This document shows, piece by piece, positions 1 to 58,761 of a stretch of 64,000 nt of DNA. A model generated the notes under the pieces. It was given only the letters and a program-made list of their open reading frames with translations, was not told the DNA's origin and did not search any database. Both the position numbers and the translations under genes were made by a program. This stretch comes from Asterochloris sp. CNOR1 (taxonomy: Eukaryota; Chlorophyta; Trebouxiophyceae; Trebouxiales; Trebouxiaceae). How positions within the stretch are numbered: the first letter of the stretch is position 1; every line of letters starts with the position of its first letter. The stretch is taken from the NCBI GenBank assembly GCA_963969365.1, contig OZ017754.1:992001-1056000 (forward strand), in the 5' to 3' direction.

Positions 1-3000
1 GGCAAGGGGCGCAAGCGCCCAGCGTCCAGTCTGGAGGAGGACATTGACTTTGCACTGGATGACGGGGAGGACCTGGACGAGGAGCCCACAAGTAGGCAAT
101 GACAGCCGTCCTTCATGCCAGCAGCAAGACGGCTGCCAGCACTGTCAACCTTGTGTTGGGGAGGATGAGGTGGACCCGGAAGAGGAGCTCACAAAAAGAA
201 TATTATTAGAAAGAGCACAGATTTGTGTTGGCAAGCTTCACTCATTGCTCACACTGGCCTGGCTCATTGTGTTGCATATGCAGCAAGGCGCTGCAGGGTG
301 ATTGGTGGCACAGAGCCTATAGAGCTCAGCTGCTGGGGGCTGCAAGCTGCTAGGCAGCCATTCGAAGAAGGGAACGAGCCTCATGTTGTCTGAGCCAAGG
401 TGAGGAGCTCCTTGGTGTGGCAATGGGGGAGTGAGGGAGTCATAAACCTCCTGGGTCAAGACCAGATTGGTTGGTGGTGGGAACGTGCCCTGGGCTGGCT
501 CAACATGCAAAGCATCGGGTAAGCTAAAGCGCAGACCCACCTGGCAAGCAACAATGCGTGTGCCTGACACTCAATTCTTGTGCATGCTGCTGCTGTAGGA
601 GGTGGATTCGGGGTCAAGGAGGAGGAGGAGGCCTGATGCCCGCCCCCAAGTCATGGCACGGAACGGGCTGCAGCAGCACTTGAGCACAATGCTGACGTGC
701 ACTGCTCCTTTGCTGATACAGTGAGCGGCGTTGAGCTAGAGGAAGACGATGAGGGGGATGGGTCTCCTGGCAACAAGAAGAAGATTGGGCGGCCTCGCAA
801 ATATGATGGACCCCTGGACAACCCCAATCTCACGGAGCCAGAGCGGCGGCGCATCAAGCGGCGCATCGCCAACAGGGAGTCTGCAGCGCGAGTCAGAAAC
901 CGGCGGACCGTGCTCATCACTGAGCTGCATGATCAGGTGGGCTGACGCTGCGTTCTCAGGGAGGGCAGAAGGGCTGTCCATCCTGGTTGACTGACGGGGG
1001 CCAGCAGCAGGAAAGCAGGTGAGGCCCAGCAGAATGTGGCAGCCAATAGTCACGACTGTGCTTCATCAGGAGAGATGCTGTCAGACATGACTGAGAGCAT
1101 GTCCGAAAGGCAGTCTCTTCCGCCTGCCTCAGGGCCTGGGAGGTGGAATGTGGCAGGCACCATGCCCAAAAGGTGGGTACCGCCGTTCTATTGCATGCAG
1201 GGTATTGATAAGCAACACTTGCAACAAGCTTTAAACACAGCACGTGATGGTAGGCACAAGCATGTGCGTACTCAAGGCAAGCAGTCCATGTCCTTGCATA
1301 GTAAACTGCTCGCCTTTTCGCAAGGTGCTTGCCATGAAGGCGTTGCCTGGGCGCTCCTGGTGCTGAAGGCGCAGCACCTTACCTGCATCTGCATTCAGAA
1401 CTGAGGCTTGAGAATGGCAATGACTACAATGACCTGTCTCGCACCTGCATGCCAAGGCAGCAGCCAGGTCGAGCAGGTGCTGAAGCCCTTTCCTGAGCAC
1501 TCTTGCATCTGCGCAACTGTACCCTGCTGCACAACATACAGCAGCACACAGCACTGCCTGCACACTGCCCCTGCACCGTGTTCAGGTTCAGGCTCTAGGT
1601 GCCCCTGCCGACAGCAGAAGGGGATGGCACAGGTGGGCCGGGATGTGGGTGGGCTTAGTACGTAACACTTGCGTGCAGGAGGGGCCCTGGGCACTCAGGA
1701 GCACCATGAGAAGCAGTTGAGAGCGGTGAAGCGTGACATGGGTGGGCCATACAATGTGCCCTGGTGCGTGCAGGTCCAGGCCCTGGGCACTCAGAAGGAG
1801 CAGCTTCAGAAGCGGGTGATAGAGGTGGAGCGTGAGCGCGGGCTGTTCTTTCGTCACATGGAGGAACTGCGTCGGCACAGCACCACCCTGCAAGAGGACA
1901 ATGGGCGCCTGCTGACAGAGTTGAATAAGCTGAGACAGGCAATGAAACAGGTGGGCTTTGTCAAGGGTTTGGTCCAAAGACCAGGAGAACTGCCATGCTG
2001 CAGCAGGTTTGAAGAAGGGTGTGGGTCCGGGAACCGTCCTGCATTCACAGCTCCACCCCGCATGCACCTGCCCACAGAGTTGGCTGCGCTGAGACAGGCT
2101 GTGCAAATACAGATGGGTTTGTCGGGTTCTGCATGGCGACAAGTGGCAGTGGCCTCATTTGGGCAGTGGCAGTGGCCTCATCTGGGCAGTGACTTGTGGA
2201 CATGCTGCAATCTGCTCGATTCCAAGGAGGTGCTGTTCAGTCTGAAGCTCCCTTACAGGATGTCACACCACCTGCCGCTTCAGAGGCTGCAGCTGGGCCG
2301 GTGGCAATTGCAGTGCCTGCAATGGCCCCTATTCAGGCGCCAGTGCAGCTGCAGCCCCCAAACAAGCTTGCGTTGGGCGGAGGAGAGCGGAGTGGCAGCG
2401 GGCGGCTGGTGGGGCCCATCAGGTGACCATTCAAGCTGCACTGCAAATCAGCAGGTGCCTCCTTGTTGTGTGCTTGAAACATATGTGCAGATTCTGGACG
2501 CCAGCCCTGCCCCAACGGGTTGCTTGGACCATTTTGGTCCAGCGCTTCATACATTGGCAGGACAAGCTTGGTCACAATCACGCAGCTCATAAGCTGGCAG
2601 GCTAAGAGCAAACCTAGCCTGTGAGACGCAAGCCAGCCTGTCGGTCAGGGGCCTCTTCATGCCCTCTCAGATTTACAGATAGAACGCTGACCCATTGCCT
2701 GCAGACTTGACAGCAATGCCAGCCTGTCAGAGATGTGGGCCAGCATGCTGCACGGGGACCCCTCGGGCATAGAGCGCATCTCCAGCGAGCAGGTGGCCCT
2801 GCCTGAGGCCCAGGCTCAGCCCCTGTCGCTGCCTCCGCTGGCTGCTGCTGCAGGGGTAGGCAGTCTGCCCCCTGGCAGCCTTCCGCCTCTTGTCATCTCA
2901 CGCACCATATCGTCAGGGATCACATCAGCCTTTGAGCCTTGGAAGGGTGGGGGCGCAGCTGCCAGGCCAGGTGAGCTGCTGGCATAATTCCAGATCTGCG

Positions 3001-5089
3001 AAAGCTCCTGCAATGCCTCAGTGCAAGATGCCAGCTTCCGCGCATGAGCTGCATGCTCTCAGCTTGACAGTGCAATCAAAGTATTGCCCCAGTGACCTTC
3101 CAGGCTGCAGGCTGCTGGGCCTCACTTGTTTGCACTCCCCCAAATGAGCATTTGGGTCTTGCATGTTGCTGCACTAGCTTGAAGTGCTGGCAATGCGCGC
3201 CATCATGTCCACCACTCACCCGCTCAAGCTGGCTGCAGGTGGCGCGGCCACTGATGCTGGGCACAGCAGAGGGGCCCATGAAAGCCTGGTGCAGGGGGTG
3301 CCGTCCACTCAGGGGAAGGGTGCCGGCCTGGGAGCACAGCACCAGGGCAGCTCGCCCAGCAAGGGTCTGCTGGGAGTGAGCAGCACTGGCCTGTTGCCAG
3401 GGCACAACAGCTCAAGCAGCCAGGGCATGTCAGGGCGCCTCAGCCAGGGGTCCCTGCAAAGCTCTCTGCAGATCTCCGGCAACCTGGGGACCCTACCTGG
3501 CCTGCCCATAGCTGCAAAAGCTGCAGGCAGCCAGGGGGTGCCCAATGGCCCGGCTGCAGCTGCAAACGCTGCTGGCAGACAGAGCAGGGCCCTGGCTCAG
3601 CATGTCGTGGGGGCCTCCGCCACTCATCATGAACTGCCTGCAGCCCCGCAGGCCTCTGACTCTGGGACACAGGCGGCGCAGCCTGCAGGCGAGGACCTGC
3701 TGCAGCAGGGGGGCCAACGGGGGCCTACACCAGCTGGCTGGGAGCCTGTCCCACTCAGGCGAGCGCTGCCTTGCTCGGCAGCGGCTAGAGCAGAGTCGGG
3801 CGATGGCAGCAGCTGTGGGACCAGCAGCCAGCCCTCAAGGGGCCAGGCTTCTGCTGCTGCTGATCCCTCAGCAGTAGGCCAGCACCAGCAGCCGCCCTCA
3901 GAGGGCGGGCAGCGCCCTCAAAGGGCTGCTGCACCACCGCTGTCCTCCTCCCCATTCTCCGTGAGCGCGCAGCAGCAGCAGCTGCCAGGACACGGCTGTA
4001 GCTTCAGCTGCAGTGGCAGGTTGGGCGCTGCTGAGCAGCTGCCCATCACTGCGCCCTCAGTACCCATCGCTGATGAGACAGGTGACACAGCATATCCGGT
4101 AGCCAGCACAGGAGCTAATGCTGGGCCGGCCAGATGTAATCTAGGAGAAGCTGGAGGCGTTGCTGACACTGATGCAGCAGTATCTCAGGATGGCAGCGCA
4201 GCAAGCTCTGCGCTGCACAGGGATGCCCCAGCTGCAGCTGATGCGGGGCTGGCCAGGCGCGGCCTGGGAGATGCTGAGGGGGACGTGTCTCTGCATCAGG
4301 CAACTTTGCAGCAGGGTGCGCCTGGCAGCGGGAAGCCTGCGCACAGGCTCAGCCAGCTGGAACACACTGCCATGCCAGGATGTGAGCAATGTCTGCCTGT
4401 GGAGCATGTTTGCTTTCAAACTTGAGTATGGCTGAGCCCTGCCTGGCAGCGTTTGCTTCTTGCCCTTGCATTCCTCATCATCTGCCTGTCAAGCATTGTC
4501 TGCTAATTCTTGGCCTCTGAACTTGAGGTCTTCCTGCCCTGTCCAGCAGTGCCTGCTGACAATGGCTGGAGGATTCCCATGCTAGCATCCATGTGATGTC
4601 TGCCTTATGGCCAATGCATGCTGCTGTGTGCTGCAGACGGCGGCCGCAGCACCATTGTGCCATCATATAATTCTGGTCGGCAGCCCCTGATGGATTGCTC
4701 AGCACCTACAGCCAGCTGCATTCTCAGGGGAGGGGCCATTGAGTAAGTCAGCGGCGCGTACTGCGTTGCAATGATTAGGCGCCTGATGAAGAATGCTGCT
4801 TGCTTACTCTTTCATAGGGGGCATAAGCAATGTTCTGTGTCGGCCACATGTGCCTGGATTGGCTGCAGCCCTGCACCATCTGTGGGACACTTTCATGGCT
4901 GCGTGTCTCTCAGCGCCTTGGTGCATGTTGTCTCTGCTGGCAAGCAAACTATATACCGAAAGGTAGCCCTGTGTTGTGTGCAGGGTGATGCCCTCTGAGA
5001 CCCTGCCACATGCGGCAGAGGTGGCCCCGCACTTGAACAGTTTTGCAGCAGCTCCAACTCAGGAGCCAATTGTGTGCCACAGCTCATGA
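1..5089 (+). CDS. bZIP transcription factor with AT-hook-like motif (5' end outside window)
   Basis: This is a sequence-specific DNA-binding regulator of the basic leucine zipper family, presumably nuclear. Visible exons are 1-91, 722-936, 1774-1950, 2241-2422, 2705-2970, 3239-4381, 4637-4742 and 4984-5089. All junctions keep phase and give at least 761 residues. Counting from the window start, residues 1-45 are acidic, 53-57 read GRPRK (AT-hook-like) and 71-92 form the basic region, with the diagnostic N-x7-R at N81-R89 (NRESAARVR). Exon 3 (103-161) is a long charged coiled coil continuing the zipper. The remaining ~600 residues are low-complexity Gln/Ser/Gly/Ala/Pro sequence typical of activation regions. 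An open frame runs on to a stop at 4425, but splicing at GT 4382 reaches two further in-phase exons, so I end the gene at the TGA at 5089. The family call is firm; exon 4's acceptor and the last two exons are inferred. Confidence 0.85.
154..197 (+). repeat. Exon echo: copy of bZIP exon 1 3' end
   Basis: This intron sequence repeats the acidic end of exon 1 (about 62-97) in direct orientation. The reading EDEVDPEEELT echoes GEDLDEEPT. The splice donor is lost in the copy. Confidence 0.55.
1671..1735 (+). repeat. Exon echo: copy of bZIP exon 3 5' end
   Basis: GCGTGCAG plus CCCTGGGCACTCAG and the following bases repeat the acceptor and start of exon 3 (1766-1830), 95 bases upstream. Divergence increases away from the acceptor. 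Confidence 0.8.
2074..2123 (+). repeat. Exon echo: copy of bZIP exon 3 3' end
   Basis: ACAGAGTTG...CTGAGACAGGC repeats the end of exon 3 and its donor region (1915-1962) about 159 bases downstream. The real CAG-GTGGG junction has become CAGATGGG, so the copied donor is dead. Confidence 0.8.
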
Positions 5090-5446: not shown

Positions 5447-8400
5447 ATGGCCCTGCGGCAGCTGGCTCAGCGCTTGGTGAGGCCACTCCAAGCGCAGGCC
5501 AGCACCTGTCAGCTGCGATCCATCAGCCACAGTACCGTAGGTCATGAGGCACAGCCGGATCCTGTTGAGTACCCCACAGTGGCAGAGGCCCAGCCTGTAT
5601 GGCTTAGAGAGCTGGGGACTATACGCAATGACTGGAGGTCTGCCGCTGCTTTTAGATCTCATCTGAATCTGGCAAGTGCAAGGCACATGTGCATCTGGCT
5701 GTCAAGGAACCCTTCACATGCACCATTCTGTCCAAGCGATCACAGTCTGCACCAGATGACACGCCTGACAAAAGGCTCCTTGCTGCAGTCGAGAAGAGGT
5801 TGCAGATGTCTACAACACACCCCTGTTGGAGCTGGTCTTCAGGGCTGCCAGTGTGCACCGCATGTACAATGACCCTCAGATGGTGAGAGCCATGCGCAGG
5901 GCACGCACTGTGCCGTTTGCAACCGTTCAAAGCTGCATGGCCCTCATGCTCCCTGCAGCCATCCTCCAGGTGCAGTTATGCACCCTGCTCAGCAAGCACA
6001 CCGTCATGAACAAGCAAGAAGGTGGTATGATCCCAGGACTGCGCTGGAGGCTGCAGCCTGCTGCGTGTTGTTCATGCTATCTGCGTGCCTTGCAGGTGCA
6101 GCGGTGCACCCTGCTCAGCATCAAGACTGGTGGCTGCCCCGAGACATGCAACTACTGTGCCCAGAGCAGCAGCTGGAGCAAGGATACGAAGCTCAAGGCA
6201 GAGAAGCTCATGGACCTGGATGCAGTCTATGAGGTGAGGCTCACTCTCTGTGTTGCAGCCTCAGTCACAGACTTGCATCAATGCAGCGGAGTGCTCCCTG
6301 AAGTTTGCAGAGCTGTGCACAGCCTGCAGAGAGCCATGCACATCTACCTGCAGGCTCCATGGTGCTGTAGGCGGCCTGCTTCTGCAGGTGGCCTGCTATT
6401 CTCACTTCCACATGCAATGCTGCAGGCTGCCTCGCAGCGCCTGCTTCTGCCCTGTTGGCAGCCTGTGTGGGGCTGCTGGCCGGCCTCACAGGCGCAGGGT
6501 GCTGCCAGCACCCATTCCCCCTGGTGGGCTCACATCTCAAGGTTTCAAGGAGATGAAATGCTGCATGCTGACCTACAGGCGGTGTGATGCAGGCAGTACT
6601 GCCCTTGCCTGGGGCCGGCCTGCCTGGCTCGCACCTGCCTGGTGCTGCTGCAACTCCATGCTGGCTGGCTCACATCTTGAGGTGCAGTCCCTGCGCTGCT
6701 GCAGGCTGCCCTGCGAGCACGGGACGCAGGCAGCACCCGCTTCTGCATGGGGGCCGCCTGGCGGGGACCCTCCCAGGTGGGCAAGCGCCAGTGGGACCGC
6801 GTGCTGGACATGGTGACCAAGATTCGTGGGCTGGGCATGGAGGTGAGGCCCACTGGCACCTGTGCCCTGAGGTCCTGTCCTCTGAAAAGGCTGCGGCCCT
6901 GCTGCAAGACGGCACCACGCTGGGGGTGGAAGCACCCCTCTTGTTTGTGCAGGAGGCACTGCTGAGCTGTGATCATGTTTCTGCTGCAGTTCTGCACCGC
7001 GCTGAGCATGTTGGCCCTTGGGCATGCTGACCCTCAGGCAGGCGCAGCACCTGCGCACCGCTGAGCTTACCCATAACTGGTCCTGCTGGCATCCTTGCTT
7101 CTGTCCAGGTTGCACTGCTGAGTGGTGACCGCTGGGCTGGTGGAGGGCACTGCGCTGCCCATGTCCACAGCCCTGCCTGTCTGGCCAGGTTGCCCTGCTC
7201 TGCAACACACTCCACTGCATTTCCGCAGGTGTGCACGACGCTGGGCATGCTGACCCCCGAGCAGGCGCAGCAGCTGCGCACCGCTGGGCTCACAGCCTAC
7301 AATCACAACCTGGACACCAGCCCGGAGTTCTACCCCAAGGTCACCTCCAGCCGCAAGTATGAGGTCAGCAGGGGGGTACACATGCTCTCGGCATGCCGGA
7401 CTCAGAAAAGCCTGTCAGCCAGCCAGCGTCTGTATGTACATGACAGGCTGTGATCTCGGCTGACACCAGCAGGGCTCCATAGCAGGGTCCTGGTCAGCCA
7501 CTTGTTCCGCTTGCTTTGAATCTTCCCTGCTCAGCAGGCAGGCGCCTGCAGCTGGCCTTGTTGAGGGTGACAAGCTGGCAGCTAAGCCACGATTGTGAAC
7601 TTTGCCTACTGGATGGTTTTAGCCTCTGATTGGGCAAACTTATGCGGACCACCCTGCTTCCGCGCTTCTTCTGCTTCTTGCGCCTCCTGAAGGACCACCT
7701 GAACACGCTGCAGAACAGCAGTCTGCATTTTGGTCGCCTCTGAGTGATGTCACCTTCTCAGGCGGCTTGCCTCCCATCCTGCTGTTGCATGACACTCAGA
7801 ACTTGTTCTGTGCCTGCAGGACCGCCTGGACACGCTGCAGAGCGTGCGCAATGCAGGCATCAGCGTGTGCGCGGGGGGGATCATCGGGCTCGGGGAGGGG
7901 CCCAAGGACCGAGTGGGGCTGATCCACCAGCTGGCCACTCTGCCTGAGCACCCCGAGTCAGTGCCTATCAACGCTCTTGTCGCAGTGGCAGGTGGGTTGC
8001 GCTGGCCTGATCTGCTCCTGCCTGGCAACGGAAAGGCATGCGCTGCCCCAGCGCAAGCTTCCTGCCACAGCTTGCATGGTGGGCAGGACACCCCAAGATG
8101 CCCAGGCACTTGTGGTCCTGTCAGGTGCCACAGGTCATTCCTGAGCTGATTGTCCTGCTGGAGCACCTGGTCATCAACATCTGTGAGGCAGTTGCAAGTG
8201 GGCTCTGCTGTCTGCTACATGCTCCTGGCCAAGCTGACTGCCTGACTTCCAGGGCCTGACTAAAGCGTCAGAAGTCCACTGCCGGGCTAGGCTGCTGCAG
8301 GATAGGGGCGTCTGAGGCATGCCTGGTGCTGCTTGCTGGCTGCTGTCTTATGGTCACCTTAGCTCTGCATCCACCCATCAGTGCGGAGACTGTCTCTGTG

Positions 8401-8947: not shown

Positions 8948-8969
8948 GTCTCAGTCTTGAGAGTGTGTG

Positions 8970-15400: not shown

Positions 15401-18400
15401 CACTTGCACCAGGCACTGCCTTGCTCAGGGACCGCGGTGGGGACCCACCTCGGCTGTAGGACTGCAGGACTGAAGTACTGCCTGACCAGGTGCAGCAGCA
15501 GTGTCCGGTCGTTGTTGTCTGTGACCCTTCCACCATACACAATCTCCCCAGAGATGTACTGCAGCGCCTGCCATGGCACAGCCTCCTGCGCACCAGCAGG
15601 AGCAGCAGTCCTCACGCACCAGACAAGCTGCATGTGAGCCACGCCTCAGCCCTAAAGCCCTTCAGGCATAGGGCTGGCCAGTCTAAACCCACTCAGACAG
15701 TGTTGCCAGCACTTCAGCTGCACTGAAAACGTCCTGTGCAGCGCCCATGCTCGAGGAATGACAAGTCAGAACCCCAGCAGAAGCACTCCAGGTGCGCACT
15801 GTCTCTGCCAGCTGGCCTCTGACAGTCTCCAGGGAGCACCCAAGATCCCCATCTGAGAAGTCGTACTTGATGTTCCAGCCCACTGCTCCGAACTTGCGGC
15901 GCTCCAACAGGACTGCAGGGGTGGCACCCTTGCTTGCTGCTATGGCTGCATGCTGAGCTCAGCGTGTGGCAGCTGCTCTGGGCAGCAGACAGCACAACTT
16001 GCTCCACCGAGCTGCATTTTGGGGCAATCATGGGGCAGCTGGCATTGAGCCCAGGCAACACAGCAGGGTGCCCAGGGAGCCAAGGTGCCGACGCCTGAAA
16101 CCTACAGAGGATACTTCATCTGCTAAGCTGCAAGGCCAGAGCAAGGCACAGCATCACCCACCAGCATGGCAGAAGGTTGCAGCAAACAGAAGGCTGCGCC
16201 AGGCCTCTGGTTGGGCGGGGCACCCATCCAGCTTGCTGGGCGTTAAGCCTGTGTATGCCCGCAGCAGGGTAGCCCGCACGCCCTGCAGGTGCCAGCCACA
16301 GTTGATGGCAACTTGCAGCAAAGGGGTGCCCCCGTAAAGCCTGTACAGGTGCACGCTGTCTGTGCAAAATGTTGTGTACGCTGTACATGGGGCCAGTGCA
16401 GCCTCAAGGGCATCAGAGCGCAGCCTCAGATTCTTCTGAAGCCATGGGCATAGCACTCAGCAGCAGGGATGGCAGCACAAGGTCACGATACACCAGCCCT
16501 CATAAGGCTGCATTACATCAGGATGATCTCAACAAGGGCAGCCTGCAAGTGGCTGGACGACAGCTGGCAGCTGGAGCGTGCCTTGAATGGCCTCATGGTC
16601 ATCTTCACACTCTGCAGGATGGCAGGCGAAGTGCTGCATGGGCAGTTCAGCCAGCAGCCAGCGGCGGCGGTGTCAGTAGAGGCGCCAGATCAAGAGCCCC
16701 CAGCAGTGATGGCCTCCCACGGGGGCGTCAAGCATCAGGCACCCTGCAGCCCCAGCTGCCTACAGGGCAGCTAGATGACAGGCACTCTTGCAGTAGGTAG
16801 TGCTTGCCTTTGGGGGTTCCATTGTGATCTTCACACTCTGCTGCAGGACGGACACCGGGAAGTGCTGGGTGGGCAGGCAGGTCAGCCACAGGCGAAAGCC
16901 TGGGTGCAGCTTGTCGTCCCCTGCGTTTTGCAGCTCTGCCACCAGCCGCTCCAGTGTGGGCAGCCAGGAGCGGGCCAGGTGGCAGTTCTGCAGGCAGACC
17001 CAGTGCCCTGCAGCAGCAGCAGCCCTCAAACCACATACAATGGGTAGCCAGTAGCAGGCCAGGTGGTACCTCTGCACACACACACCCTGCGCACTGCTGG
17101 CAGCAATGGTGCTGTCGCGGTATGCGACTACATCCAGCAGCACCCCAGCAATCCAGCCAGGCCCATGCCTGCATGCTGGCCGCAGACCAGCCCAGGCAGT
17201 GCCCATTTCAGTGTGTCATTGAGCTAAGGGTTGCGCCTGGAAGACAACAGCAGGATGGCATATGTCAGCAGCATGACTCGCGCCCTGCTCTCTGCAAGCT
17301 TTCCGATGTGAGCAGCTCTGGTAACTGTGGAGCTGCCAGCCACTGTGTCTGGTGGCTGTCTTGACCGCAGCCTGCACTGCTGAACCCTGCCCCAGTCACA
17401 CAGTCACCCTCAGGTTGACCAGGCAGGTAGGGTCACACTATCACCCACCATCTCGGCTGGCTGCCTTGATGGCTGCCTCTGCAACAGGGCCCTGCCCCTG
17501 CCCCAGGGAGATGACCTGCAGCCGCTCCCCAGGGTGGAAGCCATGGGCAGCCCCCAGCCTTGTGAGCTGGCTGGCAGGTTGGACTCCTGCAGTCCAGCAT
17601 GCAACAGCACCAGTCTTGTGGGGTGGCTTCCAGAGTCAGCCCTTCAGGCCAGCATGCAGAGGTGACCTGGCATGGTCAGCCCCTGCAGGTCAGCATGCAG
17701 CATAGGGGGTGCAGCAGATGGAAAGCAGAGGGCCTAAGGGTGAAGGAATCTACTAAAGGGGTGTGCGCCAGGCTGGCTCATGCACCTCAAGGTGCAGGTG
17801 GGCATGCAGAAGTGCTCAGAAGGGGCCAGCACAGGCATGCTGGCGCTGTGCCCTTGCATCAAGGTAACTAGGCAGAGCTTCCAAGCATCACCAGGCACAG
17901 CTTTCAAGCATCACCAGGCAGGACACTGCACTACAGGATGTGGCTTGCCTGTGGACAGCAGGAATATGATGGGCGTCTTGGAGTTGCTCTCGTGAAGGAC
18001 CTGCAGCATGGCAGGCTGGAGACTCAGTGTCAGGAGCTACAAAGGCCTGATGCATCGACAGCCATAAACAGCACAGGCAACATTTGCCCTCTGTCACAAG
18101 ACTGAGCCCAAGGGCCTCCAGCATGCAGGAAGCATGCAATGGTATCTGGCATGCTCAGCGACTGCAGTGACAGCATCATCTGCTGTCTGGCGCTGCGACT
18201 TGCCCACCTGCGAGAGCTCCACAACAATGGGCTCTGTGAACTGCTGCCCCAGCTGACTGAAGACATAATGGCTGGCAGCAGCAGCGACGAGGTGGGGCTT
18301 GGCAGCCGCCACAATGCACAGTCGGGAGAAGGGGTCGACCTGCTGCAGCCCCTGCAGCCAAAAGCAGCCTTTTGCTCCTCCAAGCACAGCCTGCCACTAA

Positions 18401-42400: not shown

Positions 42401-45400
42401 TCAACACGCTGACCGGTCCGGGTGTATTGAGCCACAGCTGCCTCCAGCGCAGCGATGTCCAGCTGCCGCAAGGGCTGCCCAGCCACCCTCTCAGTGAAAT
42501 CGGCCCAGGCATCTAGTGAGGACCACAGCAGGTGTTTGAGGGACACCTCCTCTGCGCAGTCCTGCAGCTCGCTGAAGTTGGCTTCCGGGATCCTGCAGGC
42601 AGGACTGGACAGCTGGGTAGCTGGGTGCCATTCCGTGCCCGTTGTAGAGGTAGCTCCAGGGCACAAAAGTACCCACCAACCTGACGCTGTCGCAAAGCAG
42701 TGGGCAAACAAGTGGGTCTGGGGCCCACAAGCAGTTCCAGCTATTTGCTTGATGGCCCTGATGTTCTGCTTCTTGATGGAACCAACGTTTTGAATGCGTT
42801 CAGCCTGCAGAAGCTGCCATGCGGCTCACTTGAATACCCGCTGTAGCTCCACAATATGATCTGCCTGCTGCTGCAGCTCCTGGGCCTTGCTCAGCAGCTG
42901 GCCTGTGAATGTCAGCACCTGCATTGTGCCCGTATGGTATAGCAAAATGCCAGCTGCGACAAACGTTAAGTGCACAAGTGCAGAGGGGTACACTGTGTGC
43001 ACAACTTGGGCCCAAGCATTGACACCACTGCAGTCGATCTCTTGGGGATGGGCACCAACTTGTTCTCTGCCAGCAGGAGCATAAATAGGCTAAAGCTCTC
43101 ACTCTGCTGCAGTCCGCATCTGGGTCTGACACCATGTCATGTTGCGCCAGCAGACGGACATCCACCACTTCCTTGGCCAGCCCTGCTGCCTGCACAAGGC
43201 ATACGATATGTTGCAGCCATGGAACGGCACAGGCAGAGCACTCACACCGGTCCATGGCAGGCTGCAGCATGCACATGCTGGAGGCAGCACAGATGCAGGC
43301 GCGTCACAAGCACGACTTGCTGCTGTCATGGCAGGGTGATGGCCACGACGCACGCTGCATGCACAATTGCGCTTGCACGATGCCTGACTGCAGCCTTGCT
43401 AACGATAGAAGGGCATTGTGGACAGCCCCAGGCTGCATATAGTCTGAAGGCATGCGCTGGGCGCTGTGCTCGCTGTCTGTGTTGACATGTTGCAGTCTAC
43501 TGTGGCTCAGCAGGTGCACCAGCATGCCTACTGGCAGTCCAGATAGCTGCATAACAACTAGAAATTGTAGCCAAGCCAAGCCGCCAGGCCAAGCCAGGCC
43601 AAGCCAAGCCAAGCCAAGCCTAGCCAAGAAATTGTATTGGCTTGGAAAGTACGACACGGGCAACCCTACCTCCGCGTCCAGCTCTTTCTGGAACCTGACA
43701 ATGTTGTCCTCCTTGTTGGCTTCTGCGGCGTACAAAGCGTCATTCAGGGCTGTCAGGTCAGCCTCTATCATCTGGAACGCGGCCAGCTCAATGGGCGGAA
43801 CCGCAATGTCAAACTCCTTAATCAGTTCATAGTGGGCAGACACCTGCACAGGGGGGCAGCACAGGGAAGTCAATGAGAGCCTCAGCAATGTCCGGCCTTG
43901 TGATCAGGTGGCAGTAGGCAGCGACCTGAAAAGGAAGCACAGCAATGCCAAAGGGACACCATGATGCATCGACACTATCCCAGTGACACTTGCCATGCAG
44001 GGTTCATGGCCCTACATGAGCTGAGCAGCCATACCGCATACAACGTGACGCAGCAGACTTGGGCGCCAGCAGGCAACCAGTGCTCCAGCTGCCGGCATGA
44101 AAGGAGCACAGCTGACTGCAGCCATTGCCAGTGACGAGATGATGCGGCAGGGGGCCCCTCACGTCATCAGCCCGATCGGTGAACTGCCGACGGCACTGCT
44201 CAGTGCTGGCCATGAAGTCCAGCAAGGACACCATCTCGGCTGGGGTTGTGGGGGCAGCAGAGAGGCGCCTGGTGGCTCCATGCACCTGCAGGTGGCGCGG
44301 CACAGATTGTCTCACGCTTCAGATGCACCTTGCAGCAATGTAGGCACCTTCCTACCACCTTAGTAGTGAGCTGCAGCAAGGTCAGCAGCTCAGGAGCATG
44401 ATGGTTGTGAGCATGAGTTTTGAGTGCACAGTTCAGCGGTGCCCCCAGCAGACGCAAGGCTGTGCATTCAAGAAAAACGTTTTTTGCACAGGTGGCAGTC
44501 GGGACCCCGGCACATCCTGCATGGTCTCCTGCTGCTGGCATTTGCACCACCTGTACTTAAACCTTGCAGGAATGCCTTACATCCCCACTTGGCAGGGCCA
44601 AGACCCTGAGGATGTAAGAGGACGCAATCCTGCTGGCAAGAAATGCAGATGCGTGCAGCTCAGGTGCCTGGAGCAAGAAGGCTTGGGCCTTGGGCATACT
44701 TGCCCTGTGTGCACAAGATCCTCAGCAGACAGGACGTGACCATGGCGTTAGAGACTCTGCAGCAAGACAGCGCATCTGCAATGGCTTGGTGGTCTTCTCA
44801 GCAGAGAAAGCACTATGCTTCTCCATGGCTGACCTCCTCAACAAGCTCCTGGTAGCGCTGGGCAGCCAGCTGAGGGAGCAGGGCATGGATTTCCTCCAGG
44901 CAGCGCTGAGGGGAGGGCAGCAGCTCCCTGATGAGGTCCTGCACAGCATTGGGCACACAGGCAGATTAGTGAGGGGACCTCTGCCAAAATGGGCACCAAC
45001 AGCCGCTTTAGAGCAGGCTTTGGATTCTACACGCTGCTCCTGATGGTGCTGAGCAGCCATGCGGCTGCCGGATGTGCAGGCTGCATGCCACAGCCTCAAC
45101 AGAGTTTCTGGCAAAGACACAGGACATATTCACTGCCCCTGATGCTGTGGTCGACGGGGATTGCTGCGGGTGCCCATAGCATGCAGGCTCTGCCTCTCTC
45201 CATGGAGCGTGGTGCACTCAGCAAGGAGAGCCGCTTGTTGGTGGGCTTAAGAGCAATGCACCAAAGGGCAGTGCATGGGCGCTGCCATGCGGAGGGCATA
45301 TAGCATCATGCCTTCCTTTGCAGCGGGCACTGGGACGAAATGGAGCAGACATGCTTGTGTGCAGTCTTCCAACATTGCGAGTCCTGTCACTTAGCTCAGG

Positions 45401-48400
45401 GACCTGCCTGCTGGTGGATTCTGAAGATGGACACGTCCTCTGTCTCAGGCAATGCACTGATGCGCTGCTGCTGCGCCTGCAGGGCCAGCATGTGCTCCCT
45501 GAAAGTGTCCAGGTTGCGTCTGCCAGTCACCACCTCAGAGTGCATGCTGTCAGCCGTCACTGCCCTGTTCCTCACAATCAGGTCTCTGCAGTGCAAGACA
45601 TCTTGATTACAGCACAGCATCTGCCTCCTTGCCTGCTGTCTACAGACCCAAAATGCCACAGCAGCATTCCCTGCGGATGCACGCGATCCTGAGTGTTCAC
45701 TGCATGGAGTCAGCATGTCAACTGCATTGCTGCATGGGCACCTGCTGACTGCCCTCTGAGTTCTGCAGATTTCCACAGTATCATATTGCTGCAGCATGCC
45801 AGCCAAGCAGTGCGTGCTAGGGCAACAACCTTTGGGAGTCACTGCCTTGCACAAACAGTCATGTTTCCAGCTGCTGAGGGCAAAGCATTTGATGTCATGT
45901 GGTTCCCTGCCCAGCTGAAGCAGCACATCTGCTCGCCCTTGGTGTGCCAGCAGCAGTGCAGTGCAATGGGGTGGTTGCTGCAACCCTCAGTCTGCAAAGC
46001 TTTGCCTGTGCCCATCTGCCAGCACCAGCAGTGCGACGCAGTGGGACCAGCCGCGCACCTCAGCCCCTCAAAGCTACTCCTGTGACCATCTGCCAGCAGC
46101 AGCGCTTCCCTGAGGGCTTCCTGCAGGGCCTGGGCCAGCTGCCTCTGGGGCTCATCGTGCACCAGCTGCAGCAGTGAAAAGGCGCCAACGCCTTCTGATG
46201 CTGTGCCGCCCAAAGCAGCTACCACATGCTCCTGCAGCAAGCAGGAGGCAGCAAATAAGTTGAACTGCAAGGATGGAAGAGCAACATCCAGCTACCTGCT
46301 TGCCTCTGCAGCAACACAAAGCCAGACACCTCAGGCCATGGAAGTCATCTGCACAGTGCCTTGCAGAGCGTCTTCTTAATATGTGTCAGGCATGGCAGGC
46401 CTTCAGGGCATCTGATGTCTATCTGGAGTAGGCAAAGTGACACTGCTGCTCAGTGTGCAGTGACTAGACGCACCCGCAGCTCATCATGAGTCAACAGGCG
46501 CTGCACAGCAGCAGCTGTGGCTGGCATCTCTCGCAGCGTCTTATCCAGGAAGCCGCGAATGTCAAGTGGATCTGGGTCAAACAGCAAGTTGTCTGAAGCG
46601 GCGTCCAGAAGAAGAGTCAAGCTGAGCAGGGGGCTGCAGAGGCAGAGTATAGGGTGCCTGAGACATCATACACCGCATCTTCCAGGCTTGATGGAGAACT
46701 GCAGGGTCGGGACACAGACTGCCCGACGGCTCCTTCAGCAGAAGGCTGCGGCTGAACTGCAGCGTCAGAGAACGCCGTACTGCAATGGGGATGAGGCTGA
46801 GCAAACGCTGTTGGGTCAGGGTTGCCCATGCGGACCCTCAGTGACAAGGATGTGCTGATGAGGTTAAGATGCTGCTTGGACAGGGTGCAGCCCAAAAACA
46901 CAAACATGGCACCTTGGACAGGGCTCACCTAGTGCCAAGCGCTGGCTGCGGCTTGAGCAGCTGCAGCAGGCTGTGCATGGTGTCCAGCAGGACCGCCTGC
47001 AGGCTGTTGCTCATCATGAAATCAGCCATCCTGCACAGCAGCCAGGATCACGTCACGTGCCACGTCTGTGAGGCAGTACACTGCATTGTGACATTTGCCT
47101 GCTCAAGGGAGGCAACAGAACTTGGGGACAGACTAGGTGCTTCGTTTCAAAGCAGATCAGGTATGGCTGAACACTAAGCTTGAGGCAAAGTGACAGCTTG
47201 CATGTCTGCGGTGTGCAAAAGGCACCTGGCAAACAGATATGCACAGCAAAGCAGGTTCTCGTGAGCAGGGCTGCTTGCAGCAACATTTGTGAACCCTATG
47301 CTCAATGTGGAGTAACAGCCTGCAGGCAATGGCTCCGCAGTGGGCACCTGATGAATGCCAGGAAGCGCCGCTGCTCAGAACGCTTGCTGGCACTGGTGGC
47401 GTGGCCGAACTCAGTTCGTGGCTTCCGGCGGCGCAGTCCCTTGGAGAGCTGGCGCTGCAGGAATGTCCTGTCTGTCTCATTCACACCTGTACAGGGGGTA
47501 CCGACAGCTGAGGCCAACACCCTTGACAGCAGCCAACCGTCATGGATGAGGCGCTGCTCACTGGCAGCGCAAACAAGGCTGGACCAGCACAGTACGACAT
47601 CAGATGAGGGGTGGTCCTGCCTGCCTGCCAATGCAGCTGCACCTCCTGCTGCTCCTTGGCCCCTGTCCAATCGTCGTCTTCTCCAGTGCCTGATGTCTAC
47701 GCAATTGCCATGCGGCCATGACGGTGGCCGCCGGTGGCATACAAGGAGAGGCCTCCTGCCCACTGGTTCCCAACCTGTCATGCCTGTTGTGTCAGCTTCT
47801 GAGCCACACCCACCAGGCCTGCTGTACCTTCGTGTTCTCCCTGATCAGCCCACCACTCTGCCACAGGTCATGCTGCCTCCATCAGCCGCGTGGCTTGTGG
47901 CATCGCCAGTGACACCCAGCTCCCCCCCCTCCCCCACCCCCCGGGGTCAGAAGCAAACAGTCCGCCAGGCATGTCATGCTGCCCATCTGCCATGCCTGCC
48001 ACATTTCCCCCATTGGAGACCTCACATGTTATCAGGTCTGCCAGTTGCACGCAAGCTCTGGCCCCTGCTGCCTCCTGCAGCTGCCCCACCTGTCAGGCCC
48101 GCAGAGTCTGCTGGACGTGTCAGGCTACGGCTGGCGTCCAGGGTGCTGAGCATGTTGGTGGCACGCATGAGCATCGCCTCCATGGTACCCTCCAGCTTCT
48201 CCAGTGCCGTGTCGCAGGCATCCTTGACCAGGATGAGCACGTCTAGCCCAAACCCCTCCAGCTGCATGCGCGCCGCCTGGAGACGGGCATTGAGTTCAGG
48301 CCATGAGACAGTTGGAAGTGGCTGGCAGGCCTGCTGTTCCAGTAGCACCAATTTGAACCAGCAGCTTACTAGCTGCCTGCATGCCGCCTCCATGCAGGCA

Positions 48401-51400
48401 CAGGGTGGAGGAGGAAAGACAAGCTTGCAAGTGGCAGCAGAAGCTGCATACCTAGCAAGCTGGGCATCAAGTGCAGGTAGGGCGTGGGTGGTGGACGGCC
48501 AAACGGGGCCATACACACGCGCCAGCCTTATGCATATCTGCAGCAAACCCTACATCCTGAGGCACATGCCACTGCTGCATGATGCAGACCGCGCTAAGAG
48601 ATGTTTCAAATCAGGCAATGTTGATGCTGTTTCACGAACTGCACAGAGTCCTGCACAGAGTCTCCCTGATAAGCAAGGAGATGTGGGTCCCCTGCAGCTG
48701 GACGGTGCCATGCACATGACAAGATTGCCTGCAGGTAGTTGGCTGGGCCTCTGGCAGCAGCGCTTGCAGCATGTGCAGGACAAAAGCTGTGTAAGCACGT
48801 TCGTGTCTCCTGCAAAGTGAATGCGCCCGGCATGCCTTGAGCTTGCGTTCCTCTGGAGTTGTCAAGCCATGCACCACCAATCTTGCCTGCAGGCAGTTGC
48901 TCTGGATGTCCTGCAGCTCCTGCAGCGTGTACATGCGCCCGGCATGCACACCATGTAGGCGCAGGCGCCACAGCGCTACGCACCGCCGCCGCAGCTCCAG
49001 GATGGTGGGCTGGAAGCTCACGCTCACCAGGAACAGCTGCTCCCGCAGAGTGGTTCTGCAGCCACATAACACGCCCACGATGACACGAGCCTGTGGGCAA
49101 GGGGCACTGCCCAAGCCCAGCTGGAGGGCGCAGCAGCCGCAGCCTGCAGCCTGTCCTCAAGCAAAAAGACAAGCGCGCTGCTTGGCTTAGCAGGAATTGT
49201 CCAGCAAGTGTTGCAGCCTGAATCTGCAATACCTGTATCACTTGCAATCATGCTGAATGCTGGCTGGTGTTAAATTGCTGCAGTCCCAGGAATGCTCAGG
49301 GCTCAACGCATTGGCATGCAGGGCATATTGTGGTCCTTCAGACCACACCCCTATGCCATGCAGGTGACGTCTCTGATCTTTCACACCCCCACCTCTACAC
49401 CATGCAGGCATTACGATGTTTGTCAAGTCTCCCAGGACCGACCTGCCAACCTCCATGACCCTGTTGCGCACAGCCTTCTTCCAGCGTGCAAACTGCTTCC
49501 ACACCCTGTGCTGGCGAAACAGTGGGATGGCAATGAGCTGCCAGAAGAGGGCGTACTCTCGCTCCCACTGGGGAAGAGGTGTGAAGGTCGTCTGCAAAGC
49601 AGGGCAGTCAGAAAGGCTCAGCTCTTGAATGCTGGGCTGTGGAGCTACCAGATGAAGGCCCACCCTGCTTCCACTGATGCCGCAGTGCGAAGACAGTCTG
49701 CACAGTACGGCTGCCAGGTCACCACTTTGCAGAAGCCAGTGCTGGGCGCAAGTCAGGTGCCAAGACCGCAAGAGCATTTCAGTGTTGATCATGCTGTGAC
49801 ATCATGACATGACACTCACTATGGCCGACCCACTATTGCCCTGGCAGAATGCCAGCATGAACAAGTGGCTGGCGTGTCTCACACCGTTTTCACTGCACAT
49901 AGTTTGCTTCCTGAGGACTCGGTGGCCAGTCTCACCTCCCCCTTATAGTAGTGTGTCACCCCCTTTGCACTCATCGTGCTGTAGTTGTGAGCCAAAGAGC
50001 TCTTGTGATTGACCACCTTCAGGTCGTATGGGTTATAGAGGGCTGCACTGAGGTTGGCTGGCACCAGATAGATGAACTCCAGGCACTCCTGCAGCATGAG
50101 GGGCAGTTGCGTAGCATGCATGGCACTGCAGCAAAGAAGCCACCACAAGAGAGGTGCAGATAGAGGGAATGGACTTCAGAGGCAGTAGCTTGGCATCACA
50201 TGCTCTAAAGCACAGAGGAACAGACATTGTTCAAGCAGAGAAAGTGTAGGCTCCTGCAGCAAATGCATGCCAGTGATTCAGCTTGAATGCCTTCCAGTGC
50301 AGCAGCCTGCACAAAGCTGGGCTCCTCAGACACCAAGTGGACGACGTCCAGGGCACTCCTGCAGCACAGCTGTGTAGCTTTATGCGTCATGCACAGCATT
50401 TCACAGTAGCAAACAGCTTCAGCACGGCGTTTGTGCTTAGGGGCAGAGAGGCACGTCTAAGTCAAGCAGCACACCTGGCGCCGCCAGGAGGGAGCTGCAA
50501 CATGTGCCAAATGAGCAACAGGTGACAGGCATGGGCATTGTCGGGGATGTTCGAATCAGTGTGCTACAGGGAGCTGCAACTAAGACCATACATGAGCACA
50601 ACACATGGCAGGCAGGCGTGGCCAATCCTTGTGCAGCTCACCGGGTGCTGCTTGAGCATATCCAGGAACTTGCGCCAGGGCGGCTGCACAAGCTGAGGCT
50701 GCACCGGCCAAGGCTGTTCAAAACCCACAGGCGGCACGCGCTGCTTAGTGGGAGACCTGCAGGAAGCGTTGGACTTGAGGCTACAAGTGACAGCAGCGCA
50801 GGCAGGCTGCATCCATCACGCTAGAGCTTCGTCCCGGCAAGGGTCTGATGGATCACTGTGCCTATTGGCGGAGGAGGCTGCTATGCTGCAGCCATGTAGC
50901 AGATGAATTACAGTAGGCTGGACCCAGTCTGGTGAAATTTTTCATGCACCCTGCACGCATCTCAAGAAGCTGGATGCCAGCTGCAGCTGGCAAGCATTTG
51001 TGTCAGCAGGTCTGGTGCCCTTCCCTACCCCAACCTCTGGGCTCCTTGAAAAGCATGTCTTGCCTGCAGGCTGCGACTGTGCCAAGAACAGCACAGGATG
51101 TTGGCCCTCCCTGGACCTGCTGTGTGTTCCACAGGAGTCTGTCCTGCTGCAGGCTTATGCCGTCAACCATCCCTTTCACGCACAGGTGGAACAGGAGTTG
51201 AGGCCCATAAGCACTGTCCTACTGCCACCAGATTGCCTTCCATGCACACCCTTCATTCTCCCCAAGCACTGCCCGCTCAGCCTCCCCCCCTGCAGGTGCT
51301 GCGCCAGGGGCGTCCTTGCTGGGGTTGGCATTCTCCTGGGTCGCCCGCAGCCTCTTCTCAGGGCTCCTCAGATCAGGCCTCCTGCGCAGAATGGCCTGGG

Positions 51401-55300: not shown

Positions 55301-58300
55301 CGTCATGTGCTGCATGGGGCTGGCCTTTGCAACCTGGCATGCCTTGTGGAGCTTGCTGATGGGAGCCTGCACACATTTTCCAGAGCTCCATTCACTGCCC
55401 TGCAGCCGCCAGTCGGAAGAAGAAGCGCCCTGCGTCTTCCATGGCTGAGGATGCAGAGCCAGTGGTGGACCCCTCGGGTGGGAAGCGGGCGCCGCGGCCG
55501 TATGAGAGCGATGCCAACTACGTGGAGACCAGCATGCGCACCACCGGTCAGCCCCCCTGGGCTGTAGTCCTGATGCAGTCAGCAGCGCCCAGTGTATCGC
55601 TCGACACCCTCTGCGCTCTGTGGGGCATGCCCTGGCATGCAAAGCACAAGTCAGCTCCCTGCTCCACCCTCTTTCACAGCACATGGTCCACATGGTGACT
55701 CAAAACCACGCTCCAGAGATGCTGCCGCCAGCATGCACCTCACGCCTGCACTGCTGCAGGTACGGCAGCCTGGTCCATCACCTCCACCAGCAGTCAACAG
55801 ATGTCTGAAGACTGCCGCAGCAGGGCTGCACTTAGCAGCTACCTCTCATGTATGTGCAGCTCTTCCTGAAAGGGCAGCCTTGCCTGCAGGCGCCACAACG
55901 TGGTGCTTCACCTTGGCTGACGCAAATAGTCATCCCAGACATGCCGCAGCTCTCACAGACTGCACCAGTGCTTGCAGACACGCCAACTCAGTCACCTCCA
56001 CAGTAAGGGTGCTGCCAGCTGCCATCTTATAAATGCTCTGGTAGCATAGACACCCGCTTGCAAGAGGAGGAAAGCCCTTTGTTAATCAATGGGGCCATTT
56101 TTGCTCTTTGGTATTGCTGTGTGCTGCAGGCGCTGCATGAGTTGGAGAGAGCATCCGCCCTGTCTGCCTCATGGGCATGCGCTGGAGTCCTGCGGCACAC
56201 CACCAGCCGCCTTCAACAAGCACCATCACCTGCAGGTGCGGCGTCCCGGTCCTTCACCTCCACAGCAGTCAATGTGGTCACCAAGAACACGCGCCAAAGG
56301 GTGCGCGTGGAGCGCAACCCCTCCAAGAAGGGCTACCTGCGCCTGCACACCAATCTGGGCGACCTGAACCTGGAGCTGCACTGCGACATAGCCCCCCGCA
56401 CCTGTGAGAATTTCATTCTCCTGGCTGAGAGCGGGTACTACACGGGGACCAAGTTTCATCGGCTGATCAAGAACTTCATGATCCAGGTGGGCCTAATTAT
56501 CGTAGTGCGCCCAATGTAGTTCAAGACACAGGGCTGCCAGCCTGCCTTGGTCTGCGTATCTCCCAGCCTGGGTTGCAGATCCGCACTTAGATCCACGCTC
56601 ACCCCCCTCAGGAGTGAGGCAGCCTCTGCAGACTGTTGCTGCTATATCACATTTGGTTTGCTCCTTGTTCTGTGTGGGGCAAATCTGTGGGCAGATGCCT
56701 CATGTCCAGTTGCAGCTCAGTGCGTCTGATGTTCAAGCATCATGCGTGCAGGGGGGTGACCCCACAGGCACAGGGTCTGGGGGTGAGTCCATCTATGGGC
56801 CCACCTTCAAGGACGAAGTGGACTCCCGTTTGCTGCACGGCGAGCGAGGGGTCCTGAGCATGGCCAACAGCGGGAAGGACACCAATGGCAGGTGGGGCGA
56901 TGTTGGCCTGCAGTGTGCACGCACGCTGAGCAGTCCTCTGGGGGGCGGCAGACGGCTCACATCCCAAGATCTGGGCGTGCAGGCCTTGCTGACAAGCCAG
57001 TCTTGCCTGAGTAAGCTGTCTTGCTGCTCTCAACACTTCCTGCTGCTGGGCAGCATCATGCACTTTGCTGGTCTGGCTGATCAGTGCTCCTCCATCAGCA
57101 TCCAGCTGAGCACCTTGCATGGCTAGCTGTGCAATCCTTTGCCAATGCCTGTCCTGTGATGTGGCCTCCTGAGTCGTTCTCCCGCTTCTTGATGCAGCCA
57201 GTTCTTCATCCTCTTCAAAAGTGCAGCCCACCTCAATTTCAAGCATACTGTGTTTGGCAAGCTCGTTGGAGGTGAGCTGCCTGCCTGCATGTAGCTCATC
57301 ATTAAGCCTACTCAATACCAGCCATCGTCAACTGGGCTGACCCCGATGCCCCCTTGCTGCGGCCATGGCTGCCGGTGGCGCTCTGCTGCCCTCACACTCA
57401 CGTTTGAATGTTTTCAGTTGTGTGCTCTTGAGCGTGAACTTCCCAGCTGCAGGCTTGAATGTTCTGTCTGCCATGGAGAAGGTGCCTGTGGATGGGGATG
57501 ACAGGCCTGAGAAGGTCAGTCTCAATGCAGAAATGCAGCCCTGTGGCACCTGCTGCCGTCCTTTTGCTTGGGCTGGTCTGATAGGCATCCTCAGCAGCAG
57601 GCTTGCTACCAAGCACATTGTGTGTGCTGGTCGACCCAGCTGCACCTGCATCCCATATGTGCTCTGCATGTCAGGAGGCTGTCCTGCTGAGCTGCTAAAA
57701 TTCTGTGCTCTCTGACCCTCTTGATTGTGGACACCACCATTGCGCAGCTTGGCAAGCACATGTGTGCCTGCCATGGCTAATCATTGACTCCTGCCCCCAG
57801 ATTCACGTGTAACCTTGTTTCCAGAGGGACCACCAATCCCTGAAGTCTGTTGATGATGCAAGGTACACTTAGTGCGCAGATGCAAAGATGCGCTGACTTC
57901 TTCGGTGTTGCCCGCAGGACATTGTCATCACTGGCTGCCCGGTGTTTCTGTCTTGCCTGCTCACCACTGGTTGCGTGACACTGCGCCTGCAGGACATCGA
58001 GATCACTGGCTGCACTTTGTTTGTGAACCCATACAAGGAGATGGAGGAGGAGGAGAGGCGCAAGGCAGAGGCAGCCAGGAAGAAGGTCAGTGCCGTGCTC
58101 TAGCAATCTCCTGCCTGCCTGTCCTCCTGTTGTGGGGCACCTCTACATTGCCTGGCTGCTCAGGGTGGGATGCAACTGGAGGACTACCCTGCACCTGCCC
58201 CTGGGCGACTGGCCTGCTCAAATCAGGCTGCAATCAAAGTGACGCTGCCAGAGATGTTTCCCTGAGGTGCCCTTGCCCTGCATGTTTTCGGGATTCGGGC

Positions 58301-58761
58301 CGCCAAGCCCTGAGCATTTGCAGAGGCTGGGATGATTGACCATTGCCTGCCAGGGTGCAGAGTGGATAACACAGTTCGCATGCCCCGGCATGAGCAAGCT
58401 GTGTGGCTGGACTGGTTGACATGTAACGGGAGAGGGGTGCAGGAACTGGGGCAGCCTGGGCTGCTTGAAGCACGTGTCAGCCTCTGCTGGCATGGCCCTG
58501 CAGGCTGAGAAGGACTCTGCTCCAGCTGGCCCCGAGGATGAGCCCGGCAGCTGGTTCACCAATCCATCCCAGTCAGCTGCAGCCCAGGCAGGCCAGCCTG
58601 CAGATGGTGTAGCTGGTGGTGTGGGCAAATACCTCAAGATGCCTGGGAGGGAAACCACCAATGGGGCACCAGCTGCAGCTGCCCATGGTGCTGAAGCAGC
58701 ACCAGCAGTCACAAAACACATGCCGCAGCAGAAAGGCTATGGCAACTTTGATGCATGGTGA
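52398..58761 (+). CDS. U-box / cyclophilin peptidyl-prolyl isomerase (PPIL2, CYP60 type)
   Basis: This protein joins a modified U-box (ubiquitin-ligase fold) to a cyclophilin domain. Relatives are nuclear and associate with the spliceosome. Exons are 52398-52429, 52505-52625, 52730-52897, 53183-53284, 53491-53559, 53869-54030, 54439-54557, 55036-55130, 55406-55546, 56236-56486, 56752-56891, 57198-57271, 57453-57514, 57993-58085 and 58504-58761. All phases agree, giving 628 residues. The N-terminus is [18 protein letters not shown]. The U-box spans residues ~35-110 ([27 protein letters not shown]). The family block [14 protein letters not shown] follows. The cyclophilin domain is residues ~369-520, with [11 protein letters not shown] then [13 protein letters not shown] and [13 protein letters not shown] low-complexity Ala/Gly tail ends in GYGNFDAW. 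Introns 4 and 7 are GC-AG. The insert at ~255-335 (basic, Pro-rich) is less conserved, so exon 8 is the least certain. Confidence 0.93.
55751..55940 (+). repeat. Two exon echoes of cyclophilin exon 10 start
   Basis: Copies start after CTGCAG at 55760 (GTACGGCAGCCTGGTCCATC...) and near 55890 (GCGCCACAACGTGGTGCTTC...). Both resemble the exon 10 start at 56236 (GTGCGGCGTCCCGGTCCTTC...). The first also shares CACCTCCAC and GCAGTCAA. Confidence 0.75.
57909..57952 (+). repeat. Exon echo of cyclophilin exon 14 start
   Basis: CCCGCAG-GACATTGTCATCACTGGCTG repeats the acceptor and exon start CCTGCAG-GACATCGAGATCACTGGCTG at 57993, exactly 75 bases upstream. The copy still reads DIVITGC against DIEITGC. 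Confidence 0.85.

Follow-up and report, generated by a model that had tools for sequence, protein, structure and literature searches.

Background

It is accepted that introns can be gained through tandem duplication (PMC3443670). The closest known case to the one described here is the potato RdRp gene, where an intron-exon junction was duplicated once in tandem and a new intron arose (Ma, Lan and Niu 2016, PMC4974935); as that account presents it, the duplicate is spliced and the event concerns one new intron in one gene. In the 64-kb window considered here (positions 992,001 to 1,056,000 of contig OZ017754.1 of Asterochloris sp. CNOR1), introns contain direct copies of the ends of adjoining exons, hereafter exon echoes. 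Unlike in potato, the extra copy appears to be unused and lengthens an existing intron, and the echoes occur in many genes, mostly in an old and decayed form. They are best explained by small tandem duplications across existing exon-intron borders, one copy being kept exonic and the other decaying in the intron, a reading to which we assign a probability of roughly 85%.

Several other described systems share a part of this pattern. The AGGT tandem genomic duplication model (Rogers 1989; Hellsten 2011; Gao and Lynch 2009, as cited in PMC4974935, PMC3443670, and PMC2809761) also involves an internal tandem duplication in a gene, with the extra DNA hidden by splicing; in contrast to the model as cited, existing borders are copied here and the spacing of the copies seldom equals the intron length. 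Tandem exon duplication, as treated in PMC9013439, likewise places exon-like sequence beside its exon and was studied with a similar kind of search. Exonic bases with homologues at >=80% identity are given there as approximately 2% in human, 0.08% in D. melanogaster, and 0.06% in C. elegans; exonic bases with an intronic echo at >=80% identity amount to 1.04% here, a figure that is not strictly comparable because the method differs. As far as that source is drawn on here, it deals with duplicated exons and their expression, whereas the present copies are mostly partial exon ends with one border. In rice, insertions of 10-1000 bases, including tandem and partly tandem duplications, are attributed to patch-mediated break repair (Vaughn and Bennetzen 2014, via PMC7407515); the insertions are similar, but in that secondary account they are tied neither to exon borders nor to decayed splice sites. 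For Drosophila, a study of intron sliding and tandem duplication of exons deals with novel intron positions less than 32 nucleotides from an old one (Lehmann et al. 2010, PMC2891723). There, too, the position of a splice site shifts via nearby cryptic or duplicated sites; unlike in that system, the position of the intron in the protein need not move here. Searches of an open library with few subscription journals, not all of them directed at this exact pattern, brought up among their top matches no report recognised as describing decayed border-spanning copies that occur genome-wide and follow a direction rule.

Local excess of direct similarity

The analysed material comprises the window and 20 stretches of 10 kb (L009-L028) from eight contigs, including that of the window, i.e., 264 kb of an assembly of 56.4 Mb in 21 contigs, judged eukaryotic from its spliced genes. 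As a BLASTN comparison of the window with itself returned few matches at short offsets, which was attributed to culling near the self-diagonal, direct similarities at short offsets were collected with a custom banded Smith-Waterman procedure instead. At scores of at least 130, the window contains 40 alignments at offsets of 20-2000 bases versus 0, 0, 3, 0, and 1 in five equally wide bands at far offsets. Within offsets of 20-1000 bases, the direct comparison gives 39 alignments at this score, the inverted and the mirrored comparison none, and four local dinucleotide shuffles 0-1; at scores of at least 100, the respective numbers are 91 (direct), 14 (inverted), and 20-24 (shuffles). Over the 264 kb, stricter scoring retains 149 alignments (offsets 20-1000, score >=100), whereas three control sets average 1.3.

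Echoes are present in the window, as the initial annotation had noticed, but the window does not stand out: 93 local alignments at scores of at least 130 occur in the 20 other stretches, versus 3 in a cross-locus control. The observation of exon echoes is confirmed, and it extends beyond the window. Individual stretches differ in echo density, with between 0 and 14 pairs per 10 kb; the echo-poor stretches L010 and L011 also contain no predicted intron longer than 433 bases. Insertion of introners or transposons, which should leave related copies at many unlinked sites, was rejected, as 20 cross-locus pairings of the sampled stretches produced just those 3 alignments.

The similarities might also be an artefact of composition, of common words such as CTGCAG, or of cryptic simplicity, given that CTGCA and TGCAG reach about 7.5-7.7 times the mean 5-mer frequency. 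However, the far-band, cross-locus, inverted, and local-shuffle controls give few alignments or none at equal scores, 50 kb of E. coli K-12 yield a single alignment at a score of at least 95, and the near absence of matches in the crossed classes of exon ends (see below) would not be expected from composition. The probability of such an artefact is negligible.

Position of the copies relative to exon borders

Exons and introns were assigned by an ab initio hidden Markov gene finder trained on the 264 kb analysed, with no annotation. Predicted exons shorter than 50 bases were counted as intron because of a mispredicted mini-exon and a stop-bearing insert in the dynein gene (see below), and the predicted exon 6953-7009 was relabelled by hand as false. 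The pair set holds similarities with a score of at least 95 and an offset of at least 40 bases (dropping shorter offsets reduced it from 176 to 163 pairs). Of these, 90 are exon-intron pairs, defined by at least 20 exon-to-intron columns, 56 are intron-only, and 14 are exon-exon. Echoes of exon ends, as initially described, are accompanied by a large class of pairs confined to introns.

The exon-intron pairs follow a direction rule: 87 of the 90 have their copied part in the exon half nearer to the echo (random rigid placement: 64%). Upstream introns thus hold copies of 5' ends and downstream introns copies of 3' ends, which agrees with the initial annotation and holds for all 34 such pairs in the window. 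Contact of the copied part with the echo-facing border is seen in 73 of the 90 pairs (null expectation 39%), contact with the opposite border in 7. Both features are expected of a contiguous unit joining exon and intron, because such a unit contains the border between them, and which border it spans dictates the side on which its tandem copy is located.

The terminal 60 bases of exons of at least 90 bases were also compared with the adjoining introns and with 60 length-matched non-adjacent intron stretches each. At scores of at least 90, exon 5' ends match the upstream intron in 20 of 345 cases (controls 5/20,700) and exon 3' ends the downstream intron in 20 of 345 (controls 6/20,700). The crossed combinations are nearly empty: 5' ends match the downstream intron in 1 of 345 cases (controls 6/20,700) and 3' ends the upstream intron in 0 of 345 (controls 1/20,700). 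With 18 matches among 82,800 comparisons with non-adjacent introns overall, the similarity is largely confined to adjacent introns, as had been described. All 60 controls are outscored by 10.4% of the facing exon ends and by 1.2-1.7% of the crossed ones, the latter being about the chance rate; the echoes are real, but their description as present throughout the introns was overstated.

Alternatively, break repair could have used nearby sequence, whether exonic or not, as a template for patches inserted into introns. The similar cores often span only part of the offset, as dispersed local copying of this kind would predict, and nearby non-tandem insertions accompany tandem ones in rice, according to the account in PMC7407515. 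However, a patch need not reach the facing border or follow the direction rule, both of which prevail here, and the crossed classes are nearly empty. We consider this explanation improbable.

The case for tandem duplication is built on this topology rather than on an enrichment of exon-intron pairs. Under loose scoring, these pairs show no enrichment over random placement (80 versus 76.6); stricter scoring gives 76 versus 65.3 expected, and relabelling of the one false exon leads to 90 versus 73.9 at a threshold of 95 and 61 versus 52.9 at a threshold of 110. Counted by bases, the ratio of observed to expected is 1.27 for intron-intron columns and 0.96 for exon-intron columns. Exon borders in general show no clustering of core ends (27 of 560 within 6 bases, 28.9 expected), and high-identity tandem arrays found with Tandem Repeats Finder (TRF) show no preference for them (4 of 36 touch a border, 7.5 expected). 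Intron-only pairs are close to expectation (56 versus 59.8), and exon-exon pairs are depleted (14 versus 25.3), presumably through selection on the protein. The figures suggest that exon ends are not clearly preferred targets and that exon-intron pairs are at most mildly enriched. Exon echoes are accordingly viewed as one visible class of tandem duplications, others of which lie wholly in introns.

Tandem units

In L013, a 65-base unit starting at 7127 (30 bases of an exon 3' end with its donor and 35 bases of intron) is directly repeated at 90% identity, a younger case in which the event is nearly intact. Three tandem units of 68 bases, about 97% identical and each with an acceptor motif, are located just before a predicted exon at L025:545-748, and two 64-base units in L014 end at the acceptor. 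Nearly closed units, with a core length of at least 0.7 of the offset, account for 41 of the 163 pairs, and in 28 of these 41 the copies are separated by 0.3-0.5 substitutions per site. The five most similar nearly closed units (L025:545, L022:6019, L014:5285, L013:7127, and L018:167) measure 64-69 bases, a narrower spread than that of the offsets at large; the sixth measures 100. A role of CTGCAG in microhomology was not established: TGCAG or CTGCA, the sole word tested for it, is present at 30 of 169 terminal matched runs versus 55 of 461 interior ones (p=0.066).

Intron length and decay of the echoes

Introns with an exon echo (n=70) have a median length of 414 bases, which falls to 258 after subtraction of the offset, versus 247.5 in the other introns (n=402). 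Echo-bearing introns are thus longer by about one unit, which supports the duplication of such units without proving it, as longer introns give any insert more room. Gene-model errors are suspected in 8 cases in which the offset exceeds the intron length. The lengths also bear on intron gain by AGGT tandem duplication, in which the introns themselves would be the duplicated exon. It belongs to the same class of mutation, and the offset equals the intron length (within 10 bases) in 3 of 89 cases; in the other 86 it is off by more than 10 bases, and the median ratio of offset to intron length is 0.31. This origin is highly improbable, and the distinction from it drawn in the initial annotation stands.

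In most features, the echoes look as if they decay neutrally. Their gaps are not multiples of three in 35 of 42 instances, the mismatch at codon positions 1, 2, and 3 (0.236, 0.201, and 0.285) shows weak periodicity, and 10 stops occur among 1163 codons, a count without a computed neutral expectation. Splice-site strength favours the exon over the echo in 29 of the 34 donor pairs and in 44 of the 60 acceptor pairs. The dead splice sites initially ascribed to the copies are apparent for donors, whose dinucleotide is kept in 0.53 of 34 echoes versus 0.59 under simulated neutral decay, but less so for acceptors, whose AG is kept in 0.82 of 60 versus 0.56 simulated. These counts exclude pairs with both copies at borders (unfiltered, 58 of 67 acceptors and 24 of 39 donors).

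The retained acceptors could indicate that echoes are functional alternative or mutually exclusive exons under selection, the more so as the scores of 43 of the 60 echo acceptors and 16 of the 34 echo donors still exceed the 5th percentile of functional sites. Intronic TGCAG words that do not serve as acceptors are, however, often kept too (110 of 149, in the sense direction; acceptors 52 of 58), and acceptor retention is therefore not taken as proof of function. Mutually exclusive exons should have both borders copied, yet the echo covers the whole exon in just 6 of the 90 exon-intron pairs. The broken frame and weak codon periodicity also argue against coding function, as does the lack of one echo-encoded mini-exon in a solved homologous dynein. 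A functional role as exons is accordingly very improbable.

Evaluation and proposed mechanism

Small tandem duplication across borders, the interpretation first offered for the window, is favoured because of the direction rule, the contact with the facing border, the crossed-end control, the repeated unit in L013, and the excess of intron length. Several observations weigh against it. Most pairs are not closed, the median ratio of core length to offset being 0.38 for exon-intron and 0.51 for intron-intron pairs, and beyond the similar cores the flanks resemble each other only a little more than controls do (mean rank 0.617, p=0.005, 122 pairs); many pairs are therefore judged to be tandem only from their topology. 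Copy distances below 0.3 are found in 11 of the 41 nearly closed pairs, whereas a constant rate predicts 68%. This scarcity of young units would be explained by a past pulse or by a fall in rate, the shape of the distribution being provisional because members of one array, here as elsewhere in the pair set, are not independent. Pairs lying mainly in intergenic sequence number 0 versus 4.2 expected, with only 15.6 kb labelled intergenic and the label itself uncertain. The AG of echo acceptors is kept beyond the simulated level, as stated above. Within pairs, identity is 0.752 in exon-intron and 0.734 in intron-intron columns (the former being higher in 22 of 39 pairs); a constrained exon copy would be expected to give a wider gap, and the trimming of alignments to similar cores blunts or biases the comparison. 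Lastly, the gene models are ab initio, trained on the very sequence under test, and relabel exons of less than 50 bases as intron.

Under the proposed mechanism, short segments, mostly of 60-250 bases, would be tandemly duplicated at apparently random positions in genes, probably by replication slippage or error-prone break repair. If a unit spans a border, splicing would use the copy that adjoins the remainder of the exon, and the original mRNA could still be made; the spare exon end, with its splice site, would become intronic and decay, the intron having gained one unit. Selection would then keep one copy spliced, as the initial annotation suggested. Units within introns would be tolerated as well, while those within exons would change the protein and be depleted, probably by purifying selection.

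Approximately one exon end in ten thus carries a recognisable fossil of a border-spanning duplication. Since the splice site that won and the one that lost are both preserved in such fossils, it can be asked which one splicing keeps, how fast the loser dies, and whether such mutations sometimes yield new introns or alternative exons; they touch on the open questions of intron growth and of how splicing settles between two duplicated sites. A bolder scenario is that a past pulse of 60-250-base tandem duplications reshaped the genes of this lineage and is a main source of intron length, with echo acceptors over-retained as alternative or decoy 3' splice sites. We regard this scenario as unlikely; if it were true, the echoes would constitute a dated natural experiment on the choice of the spliceosome between duplicated sites.

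Genes and echoes in the window

Echoes had been reported from four genes on both strands, and all four contain them (Table 1). The 34 exon-intron pairs of the window, located at 30 of 274 exon ends on both strands, are distributed among the genes for dynein (23), biotin synthase (5), bZIP (4), and cyclophilin (2). Their offsets range from 56 to 476 bases (75-480 bases had been given initially).

Table 1. Exon echoes in the window, with the exon copied, the location of the echo, its strand, and further details
Feature	Position	Strand	Details
Echo of 3' end, predicted exon 1-91	160..194	+	offset 103; exon cut by window edge
Echo upstream of bZIP exon 1679-1950	1616..1736	+	offset 93; copies overlap, like a decayed array
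Echo of 3' end, bZIP exon 1679-1950, downstream intron	2064..2123	+	offset 159; donor GT changed to AT
Weak echo, assigned to predicted exon 4178-4381	4113..4153	+	offset 123
Echo of acceptor and 5' end, biotin synthase exon 6096-6233	5932..5994	+	offset 128
Echo of acceptor region and 5' end, exon 6705-6842	6469..6627	+	offset 143
Echo of acceptor region and 5' end, exon 7229-7363	6986..7027	+	offset 239; overlaps relabelled 6953-7009
Echo, biotin synthase exon 7229-7363, upstream intron	7019..7070	+	88% identical; offset 223; near relabelled 6953-7009
Echo of acceptor and 5' end, exon 7820-7991	7686..7714	+	90%; offset 127
Echo assigned to exon 16808-17007	16569..16645	-	overlaps part of predicted exon 16547-16611; assignment uncertain
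Echo of 5' end, exon 16808-17007	17041..17105	-	offset 84
Echo of 3' end, exon 17449-17586	17337..17400	-	offset 105
Echoes of 5' end, exon 17449-17586	17610..17702	-	two pairs: 17610-17658, 17649-17702
Echo of acceptor and 5' end, exon 22843-23042	23098..23156	-	offset 99
Echo of 3' half, exon 28772-28927	28706..28758	-	offset 79
Echo of 3' end, dynein exon 30093-30224	29722..29775	-	81%; offset 362; donor dinucleotide intact; holds mispredicted mini-exon
Second echo of 3' end, dynein exon 30093-30224	29836..29947	-	offset 191; decayed three-copy array
Echo of 5' end, exon 30093-30224	30343..30369	-	
Echo of donor region and 3' end, exon 31251-31362	31153..31192	-	offset 78
Weak echo of 5' half, exon 31716-31878	31931..31961	-	
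Echo of 3' end, exon 35761-35913	35607..35656	-	offset 156
Echo of acceptor and 5' end, exon 36550-36686	36749..36788	-	offset 95
Second echo of 3' end, dynein exon 38959-39173	38712..38777	-	offset 235
Echo of 3' end, dynein exon 38959-39173	38824..38894	-	82%; offset 119
Echo of 5' half, exon 39779-39919	39961..40006	-	offset 100
Echo of 3' end, dynein exon 41143-41377	40931..41035	-	offset 200
Echo of 5' end, exon 43670-43843	43870..43934	-	offset 82
Echo of 3' end, exon 46059-46231	45948..46029	-	offset 75
Echo of 5' end, exon 48090-48276	48325..48435	-	offset 111
Echo of 3' half, exon 48836-49055	48707..48777	-	offset 159
Echo of 5' end, exon 49443-49591	49642..49717	-	offset 107
Echo upstream of cyclophilin gene exon 56130-56486	55754..55797	+	86%; offset 476
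Echo of acceptor and 5' end, cyclophilin exon 57993-58085	57910..57950	+	80%; offset 75

The axonemal dynein heavy chain gene, which is DNAH6-like and has very many short exons, lies on the minus strand inside a merged prediction (9104-52275) that fuses it with neighbouring genes. A predicted piece of the dynein has its best match in PDB chain 8glv_Fm (E=0, 1128.7 bits), followed by DNAH6 entries with at most 955.1 bits; 8glv is taken to be an axoneme of Chlamydomonas, as would suit a green alga. One dynein query searched against viral contigs found no relative. The solved dynein aligns collinearly with two long pieces of the predicted protein. Relative to it, the predicted mini-exon 29731-29766, located inside an echo, corresponds to an insert of 12 residues, and a second insert, of 23 residues and with a stop, is likewise mispredicted but not assigned to an echo. 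The statement that the exon copy always matches the protein family is thereby borne out by alignment for these two dynein pieces and was checked at the domain level in the other genes. Biotin synthase and cyclophilin are recognised at that level, while the bZIP match (22.1 bits) is below the Pfam cut-off of 27.6. The term U-box for the cyclophilin gene is the label of the initial annotation; Rtf2 and zf-NOSIP matches were seen, both sub-cut-off.

From the 264 kb, the gene finder learned the donor consensus CAG/GTGAGC and the acceptor consensus CTGCAG/G (the slash marks the splice site). CTGCA and TGCAG are the first and the fourth commonest 5-mers, and CTGCAG is also the splice acceptor consensus. 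GC replaces GT in approximately 13% of the donors predicted by the ab initio models in the window and L009-L028.

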